Of a stretch of 43,380 bases of DNA, positions 6,013-6,433 are shown piece after piece. Numbering within the stretch: the first letter of the stretch is position 1; the number at the start of each line of letters is the position of its first letter. A program made the position numbers and the translations under genes. The notes beneath the pieces were generated by a model that saw only the letters and a program-made list of their open reading frames with translations, had not been told where the DNA came from and ran no database searches. This DNA comes from Anaerolineales bacterium. Lineage in GTDB: Bacteria; Chloroflexota; Anaerolineae; CG2-30-64-16. The stretch lies in assembly GCA_017882045.1 (NCBI GenBank), contig JADGQF010000007.1:1-43380 (forward strand), read 5' to 3'.

Positions 6013-6298
6013 AGTCCCCTTCGACACAGGGACGAAGGGGACTCCGCGGTACCACCCTGGTTGCCGGTTAGTGGAGCTGAGGGGATTCGAACCCCTTACC
6101 TCCTCAATGCCATTGAGGCGCTCTCCCAATTGAGCTACAGCCCCGGATGAAACACAAACCGGCCACTTGGCCTACGCTATAACGGGCGTACCCATGGCTC
6201 CCGGACGAGTTCGGCCGCGTGGGCTCCGGTCCACGTGCGGGGTTTTCACCTGTTCCCCGTTCTCTGCAGAGCTGGCCTACTACTTCCGTTCGACGCCG
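6013..6298 (-). promoter_or_regulatory. Leu-specifier T-box leader interrupted by a tRNA gene
   Basis: On the minus strand a full T-box riboswitch can be read. Stem I has the AGUA loop-E strand (AAGTAGTAGGCC) pairing with GGCC-GAA-CTC-G-TCCG. The specifier CUC is therefore at 6209-6207 and is a leucine codon. The AG-bulge element CAGAGA and the distal-loop GGTG element follow as in the family. The CCGTTATAGCG segment resembles stem III. The T-box sequence AGGGTGGTACCGCGG lies at 6044-6058, followed by an 11-bp terminator (6013-6023/6033-6043) and a TTT run. Uncharged tRNA-Leu should stabilise the antiterminator and allow transcription into the hydrolase and leuS. Unusually, tRNA-Ala(GGC) (6072-6144) is embedded between GCCGGTT (6157-6163) and AACCGGC (6063-6069), a perfect 7-bp inverted repeat that would otherwise form the linker hairpin before the antiterminator. 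Confidence 0.92.
6072..6144 (-). tRNA. tRNA-Ala (anticodon GGC), nested in the T-box leader
   Basis: The 73-nt cloverleaf is complete. The acceptor GGGGCTG/CAGCTCC carries one G-U pair. The D arm is GCTC/GAGC, the anticodon arm CCTCA/TGAGG with loop ATGGCAT (anticodon GGC), and the T arm AGGGG/CCCCT with TTCGAAT. The discriminator is A and CCA is not encoded. No separate promoter is visible, so it is probably transcribed from 6405-6433 through the leader. It is very similar to tRNA-Ala(CGC) in all arms except the anticodon arm. Confidence 0.97.
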
Positions 6299-6318
6299 AC
6301 TATCCAGTTGGTAACCAG

Positions 6319-6391
6319 TGGAGCTGAGGGGACTCGAACCCCTTACCTCTACAGTGCGATTGTAGCGCTCTCCCAGCTGAGCTACAGCCCC
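6319..6391 (-). tRNA. tRNA-Ala (anticodon CGC)
   Basis: The 73-nt cloverleaf has acceptor GGGGCTG/CAGCTCC, anticodon stem CTACA/TGTAG, loop ATCGCAC (anticodon CGC, reading GCG), T loop TTCGAGT, discriminator A, and no encoded CCA. It begins about 14 nt after a near-consensus promoter -10 and is the first product of the transcript that continues into the T-box leader. Confidence 0.97.
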
Positions 6392-6404
6392 AGGAGCGAA
6401 AGAT

Positions 6405-6433
6405 AGTATACGCAGTATTGCGCCCGGTGTCAA
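6405..6433 (-). promoter_or_regulatory. Strong promoter of the tRNA-Ala/T-box/leuS unit
   Basis: TTGACA (6428-6433) and TATACT (6405-6410) are spaced by 17 nt on the minus strand, directly before tRNA-Ala(CGC). No other promoter is evident between this tRNA and the T-box stem I, so it probably serves the whole unit. Confidence 0.88.

Follow-up and report, generated by a model that had tools for sequence, protein, structure and literature searches.

An intact tRNA-Ala(GGC) gene lies inside a leucine T-box leader upstream of leuS in the window, by which we mean the whole stretch of 43,380 nucleotides of Anaerolineales DNA that was analysed. The nesting is no local oddity, since it recurs in several phyla. 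The anatomy of the leader, its recurrence, the covariation of the arms around the tRNA, the integrity of the tRNA and its single copy in the sampled draft genomes were all read directly from sequence. We consider it quite probable that the leader is a functional leucine T-box riboswitch, transcribed from one promoter, with an entire tRNA-Ala(GGC) gene as the loop of its Stem III. Judged from its sequence, one RNA appears both to make tRNA-Ala and to sense tRNA-Leu.

On the minus strand, positions 6433-6006 contain in this order a promoter, tRNA-Ala(CGC), stem I, stem II, a first arm, tRNA-Ala(GGC), a second arm, the T-box core and a terminator; all coordinates below refer to this strand unless stated otherwise. 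The sigma-70-like promoter TTGACA-17-TATACT (6405..6433) matches the consensus at 11 of 12 positions (shuffles mean 0.1), and tRNA-Ala(CGC) behind it (6319..6391; 6318-6391 in ARAGORN) is the first product of the transcript in the window's lineage. T-box Stem I (6202..6288), placed by sequence and by the alignment to the Rfam family RF00230, carries the AGTA (6284-6281), AGAGA (6265-6261) and GGTG (6250-6247) elements. Its specifier loop, framed by CGGA/TCCG and GGCC/GGCC, contains the leucine specifier CTC (6209-6207). The RF00230 alignment assigns 6169..6200 to stem II with the IIA/B region, which includes what we take to be the CCGTTA element of the T-box literature. Next come AAGTG (6168-6164) and the arm GCCGGTT (6163-6157; together 6157..6168), the tRNA-Ala(GGC) gene (6072..6144, 6071-6144 in ARAGORN; CCA not encoded) and the arm AACCGGC (6069-6063), which is followed by a conserved AA (6061..6069 in all). 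The T-box core AGGGTGGTACCGCGG (6058-6044, sequence and Rfam alignment) contains the UGGU bulge (TGGT, 6054-6051). By the same two lines of evidence the antiterminator lies within 6028..6058, the AGGG of its 5' side pairing with TCCCT at 6032-6028. The intrinsic terminator (6006..6043) consists of an 11-bp stem, AGTCCCCTTCG/CGAAGGGGACT (6043-6013), and a T-run; a consensus scan with loops limited to 8 returned a 6-pair version of it.

The CUC specifier had been matched to the downstream leuS in the first-pass annotation. This match stands, but the placement had to be corrected: leuS, encoding leucyl-tRNA synthetase (2459..5326; PF13603, E 3.5e-61), is the second gene behind the T-box and follows an alpha/beta-hydrolase ORF (5340..5990; PF00561, E 4e-18). 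The hydrolase ORF would come under leucine T-box control too if the unit is read through. On the plus strand, a divergent ORF (6449-7066), which we take to resemble a PadR-type regulator, adjoins the tRNA promoter with its start.

Covariance model searches support both parts of the nested unit. With an E-value threshold, RF00230 covers positions 6302-6025 over its full length (model 1-219; 58.3 bits, E 3.3e-12), and the alignment treats tRNA-Ala(GGC) as an insert in one hairpin loop. The score lies below the Rfam gathering score of 93, which is why a default Rfam scan is silent on this T-box. Both tRNAs of the window were found by Rfam (RF00005, 65.5 and 62.3 bits) as well as by ARAGORN. The nested gene has a cloverleaf, the anticodon GGC, G3:U70 and the discriminator base A73. 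The minimum-energy fold of the leader holds the Stem III helix with the cloverleaf inside it and the 11-bp terminator; the total folding energy is ordinary for the composition (z 0.14 against shuffles). From sequence and fold, both alternatives of the switch are predicted, the 11-bp stem with its T-run and the AGGG/TCCCT pairing. Most of the first-pass annotation was thereby borne out. The T-box described there on the minus strand with every landmark spans 6302-6013, with a full-length RF00230 match and the elements in the sequence. The AGUA, AGAGA, GGTG and CUC elements and the pairings of the specifier loop could all be located; the 11-bp terminator is present in sequence and fold, the perfect 7-bp arms are present in the sequence, and ARAGORN and Rfam agree on the complete tRNA-Ala(GGC) inside the T-box. 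The same two programs detect the tRNA-Ala(CGC) that had been placed behind TTGACA-17-TATACT, and this promoter is the only promoter-like site in 5950-6520 (shuffles 0.1).

Two names had to be revised. The helix around the tRNA had been called a linker hairpin, and "stem III" had been used for a region that is stem IIA/B. In the sections of PMC7583486 drawn on here, Stem III lies between 5'-RRRxG and AA-3' and belongs to the discriminator, which recognises the 3' end of the tRNA; neither the discriminator nor aminoacylation sensing can do without this helix; insertions of unknown function are mentioned there for every T-box domain. The window's AAGTG, which fits RRRxG, is followed by the rest of this layout: AAGTG-GCCGGTT...AACCGGC-AA stands beside the core AGGGTGGTACC with its TGGT bulge. 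These flanking motifs identify the helix as Stem III in current nomenclature, with the tRNA in its apical loop.

The arrangement was searched for in other genomes with a pattern consisting of a generic tRNA T-arm and a T-box core 21-81 bases further on, the type of tRNA being left unspecified. It occurred in 67 of 298 genomes of the class (23/59 families, table count) and in 22 of 301 genomes sampled across the phylum, and the reversed pattern gave 0 matches in both sets. Since longer gaps are passed over (L083, L084), these genome counts are lower bounds for nesting. The same pattern matched at least 120 stretches in public genomes, and the following figures come from the 80 matches listed. 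In 74 of these 80 the pattern lay inside a tRNA-Ala(GGC), 9-57 bases before the core, and none had a tRNA other than tRNA-Ala(GGC) inside a T-box. Among the other matches, L141 is cut by the edge of the locus, three have a T-box but no tRNA, a T-arm-like stretch occurring there by chance (L136, L155 and L171), L179 is a tRNA-Arg with no T-box above the Rfam cut-off, and L132 contains neither tRNA nor T-box. By the titles of the submitters, the listed nested loci span at least six phyla, although some bins may be mislabelled; the titles given are Bacillota, Chloroflexota, Thermomicrobia, Coprothermobacterota, Caldisericota, Atribacteria, Armatimonadota and, for a single locus, Actinomycetota. 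Isolates among the matches listed are L131, L138, L144, L189, L193, L195 and L199, and the nested unit is found in Syntrophomonas wolfei subsp. methylbutyratica (L199), Dictyobacter kobayashii (L189), Tengunoibacter tsumagoiensis (L144) and Desulfofundulus species (L138, L193). The presence of the layout in other genomes counts against chance.

Fifty stretches upstream of leuS, from the window and its class, were sorted by script. The nested layout was present in 21, including the window, and in 10 the tRNA-Ala(GGC) was located upstream of an ordinary T-box. Two stretches had a T-box with no tRNA near, one had a decayed T-box beside intact tRNAs (G002) and two had tRNAs with no T-box motif. 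Within the stretch examined, neither tRNA nor T-box was seen in 14; some of these are nested farther up, with matches about 2 kb from leuS (G032, G066 and G116).

For the analysis of conservation, the 74 public leaders and the 21 from the class were pooled (95 in total, 94 of them distinct); removal of L080 and L109, which have fewer than 40 bases upstream, left 92. Eighteen of the 74 public nested loci were scanned with RF00230, and 13 of the 18 scored above gathering with the tRNA inside the span of the match, reaching up to 133 bits (L130: 133.2 bits at 3859-4142, tRNA at 4016-4088). Thus, the Rfam check proposed earlier gave a full-length match below gathering in the window and matches above it in most nested relatives scanned. 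A CUC-specifier-like motif was present in 91 of the 92 leaders, the exception being the truncated L183, and leuS followed downstream on the same strand in 81, in 17 of which it starts more than 600 bases on. Nine of the 11 leaders without a leuS match have less than 1.2 kb of downstream sequence; L131 and L146 are the exceptions. The bulge reads TGGT in 89 leaders and TGGC in three, a count that is not independent because TGG is part of the search motif; the T-box core motif as a whole was a search criterion and is no independent evidence. AGTA or AGCA occurs upstream in 90 of 92 leaders, as four letters are expected to do by chance over such a length. The tRNA itself has GGG...UCCA and 7/7 acceptor pairs in all 92 leaders, so that G3:U70 and A73 are kept throughout; G3:U70 is the identity pair of tRNA-Ala. 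With the tRNA intact in every leader, a chance tRNA-like fold was ruled out.

Covariation of the arms was analysed by taking as 5' arm the bases behind the RAGNG nearest upstream of the tRNA, and as 3' arm those in front of the AA, irrespective of pairing. This anchored 85 of the 92 leaders, and seven were dropped. With their own arms, 82.8% of the five-pair cells were standard pairs, compared with a mean of 59.2% when arms were swapped between leaders; the highest swap reached 65.9% and 0 of 2000 swaps the observed value. The 45 distinct arm pairs gave 75.1% with their own partners and 53.3% with swapped ones (0/2000 as high). Swapping leaves some relatedness between the leaders, so no exact probability can be read from these figures. 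All five pairs form in only 55 of the 85 anchored leaders, and several types of standard pair are seen at each of the pairs 2 to 4. In an alternative version, in which the best helix was chosen by its pairing, at least five pairs were found in 63 of 92 own combinations and 430 of 2760 swapped ones; the anchored repeat is free of the bias of that choice. The alignment of relatives' leaders that the first-pass annotation had proposed thus shows a retained tRNA and co-varying Stem III arms, and the helix around the tRNA is apparently under selection for pairing. Where the helix has four pairs or more, the spacers that separate arms and tRNA range from 0 to 24 nt on the 5' side and from 0 to 73 nt on the 3' side.

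By the usual decoding rules, the codons GCC and GCU are read mainly by tRNA-Ala(GGC). Each of three tRNA catalogues, all from draft genomes (G000, the genome of the window, G007 and G112), contains exactly one tRNA-Ala(GGC), and a DNA search found one in 10 of 11 draft genomes. The same search returned two in G006, located at the ends of two contigs, and these are perhaps one gene split over overlapping contig ends. The leuS-linked gene is therefore the only tRNA-Ala(GGC) seen in the sampled drafts, a statement that their draft status keeps from being absolute. The expected ligand of the CUC specifier, tRNA-Leu(GAG), is absent from the catalogues of G000 and G007 and present once in that of G112; an assembly gap may account for this, or another tRNA-Leu may be used.

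T-boxes choose between termination and read-through during transcription according to the charging of the tRNA. For the nested leader we infer switching, ligand, processing and order of events as follows. The polymerase would transcribe tRNA-Ala(CGC) (in the window's lineage), then the sensor made up of stems I and II, then tRNA-Ala(GGC) and finally the switch. When tRNA-Leu is charged, the terminator would form and end the transcript shortly after the tRNA; uncharged tRNA-Leu(GAG) would instead keep the antiterminator in place and allow transcription of the hydrolase gene and leuS. Because it lies upstream of the terminator, tRNA-Ala(GGC) would be transcribed in both states of the switch, and the T-box terminator would double as the terminator of the tRNA unit. 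The simplest account would be a steadily used tRNA promoter that is shared with leuS, the T-box restricting leuS to low expression except when tRNA-Leu is uncharged. To release tRNA-Ala(GGC), RNase P and 3' processing would have to cut between the arms of Stem III. The decision would fall during transcription, most likely before the tRNA is excised, and the paired arms (7 bp in the window) could keep both halves of the leader together after the cut. The first-pass annotation had reasoned, logically, that processing would sever the switch and that the decision would have to come earlier or be reset by it. Against our reading stand the scores below gathering of the window and of five of the 18 nested relatives scanned, the ordinary folding energy, the incomplete Stem III pairing in part of the anchored leaders, promoter-like sites inside the sensor in four of 86 leaders, the absence of tRNA-Leu(GAG) from the catalogues of G000 and G007, and the decayed T-box of G002.

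An unlikely extension of this scheme is a switch that dismantles itself: excision of tRNA-Ala would cut Stem III, and maturation of the tRNA would be a second input. If so, tRNA-Leu would be sensed before the cut, and afterwards the split RNA would be either held by the arms or erased. The output of leuS would then depend on leucine charging and on the capacity for tRNA processing, and the arrangement would be ancient and present in several phyla.

Another unlikely reading gives the nested tRNA itself a role in switching, with leuS gated either as the tRNA folds or as RNase P and RNase Z excise it. Gating may act, for example, through a delay of the discriminator, through Stem III being cut open or through the processed 5' end of the leuS mRNA. 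In the leaders examined, from several phyla, the tRNA is always found in the Stem III loop of a leucine T-box, the arms around it co-vary, and a cut in a helix described as indispensable in the consulted part of PMC7583486 should matter; all three points speak for such a role. The high variability of the arm-tRNA spacers argues against it, as do relatives that have retained a leucine T-box but carry the tRNA outside it (L090, L098, L101, L103, L106, L118, L120, L121 and L123), so that the nested tRNA is seemingly not needed for the leucine switch. A T-box can also be lost while the tRNA stays: in the same-family genome G002 (L110, contig 144), tRNA-Ala(CGC), tRNA-Ala(GGC) and the terminator are kept, stem I is no longer recognisable and the core is degraded. 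The T-boxes with the tRNA outside and G002 favour, though not strongly, a T-box that hosts the tRNA over a tRNA that is an obligatory regulatory part.

The decayed T-box of G002, with its retained tRNAs and terminator, bears equally on the proposal that stem I and the rest of the T-box are vestiges in the window. The unit would then amount to a tRNA operon plus a remnant terminator, and leuS would no longer be under leucine control. The window's score under the Rfam cut-off points the same way, and five of the 18 nested relatives scanned are also below gathering (L128, L137, L159, L165 and L170). We nevertheless regard a vestige as very improbable. AGTA, specifier, bulge and both arms are kept in the window, the CUC-like motif is near-universal among the leaders and their arms co-vary; G002 shows how a real vestige looks. 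For the window itself we saw none of the signs against nesting that had been named beforehand (a separate promoter between tRNA and T-box, stem I and antiterminator split between genes in relatives, a vestigial stem I), but in one same-family relative, G002, the T-box has decayed.

Equally slight is the chance of two overlapping units, in which the tRNA would have a promoter of its own inside the T-box sequence and there would be no single nested transcript. In the window, the scan of 5950-6520 found no promoter-like site inside the T-box or between it and the tRNA that precedes it. In relatives, 86 leaders with a placeable stem I were scanned (6/92 were left out), and 18 had a promoter-like match in the stretch scanned before the tRNA, with 4.1 expected from shuffles; 14 of the 18 sites are 150 bases or more away from the tRNA, at stem I or ahead of it. 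The idea of an internal start draws on the four leaders with a site inside the sensor (L128, L144, L151 and L189), three of them from Ktedonobacteria. No site reached the threshold within about 150 nt of the tRNA in the remaining 82 leaders, and an internal start would leave the read-through RNA with a Stem III still interrupted by the tRNA. Within the 150 bases preceding stem I, 45 of 83 leaders had a promoter-like site (7.0 expected). Bacillota such as L199 have TTGACT-TATAAT before stem I and no upstream tRNA; with this layout the nested tRNA would come from the promoter of the T-box. In the Ktedonobacteria L128, L144 and L189 the promoter-like motif TTGTCG-17-(T/C)ATAAT overlaps the conserved stem II region, 63-71 bases before the tRNA. 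An assembly or binning artefact of the metagenome bin, which comprises 462 contigs with 6.13% contamination, has next to no standing against the same layout in the isolates L199, L189, L144, L138 and L193.

To look at the origin of the nested leader, a LeuS tree of 83 rows was calculated with FastTree and rooted at the midpoint; 49 of the 83 rows had less than half of the columns filled. Nested leaders are located on both sides of the deepest split. Bacillota fall largely on one side and Chloroflexota largely on the other, with L159 and L169 (Chloroflexota) and L152 (Bacillota) as exceptions on the opposite sides, and four state changes are required for the 74 rows that were counted. Since 53 of the 83 rows come from the scan for nested leaders, no date for the origin can be taken from the tree. 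Common descent is favoured over repeated insertion by the fact that tRNA, loop and T-box are the same each time; horizontal transfer of the leuS unit may be an alternative to common descent.

Searches of the open-licence literature turned up no T-box with a tRNA gene inside it, in agreement with the first-pass annotation, which knew of no riboswitch with a functional tRNA gene inside; the sections consulted of PMC7778990, PMC2494555, PMC12452182 and PMC7583486 describe none. Like the leucine transcriptional T-box of RF00230, the nested leader has a Stem I with AGUA and CUC, a stem II region, Stem III between RRRxG and AA, a UGGN bulge, antiterminator and terminator, and a synthetase gene downstream. 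Unlike that T-box as described in those sections, it has a complete tRNA gene as the apical loop of Stem III. Since the sampled genomes showed no tRNA-Ala(GGC) gene but this one, and the tRNA has to be excised for use, the leader must be sensor and tRNA precursor at once. The double role offers a direct test of the order in which folding, termination and tRNA processing take place. The layout would couple the supply of one tRNA with the sensing of another, and T-box leaders can carry a complete RNA gene inside over great evolutionary distance.

In the tufB operon of E. coli, tRNA genes are co-transcribed with a protein gene. By analogy with operons of this type, tRNA and mRNA of the nested unit would share one primary transcript and be parted by RNase P and 3' processing; unlike there, the nested tRNA interrupts a regulatory RNA, inside the part that decides on termination. 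The thrS T-box leader of B. subtilis is reportedly cut near the terminator by a general RNase, giving a processed mRNA (work ascribed to Condon and co-workers), whereas a cut in the nested leader would come from tRNA maturation. A second T-box of the window's genome also follows a tRNA on the same strand: at L003 (contig 111, 1403-1830), a tRNA-Val(GAC) stands directly before a T-box and has a TATAAT-like box before it, and the ORF downstream is presumably ThrS. In both units the tRNA is ahead of the T-box core; that of L003 is wholly upstream of stem I. In three further loci of class members (L053, L055 and L067), a tRNA-Val or tRNA-Asn lies 250-281 bases before the T-box core, so that an upstream tRNA-Val or tRNA-Asn was seen in 4 of the 38 T-box loci scanned.
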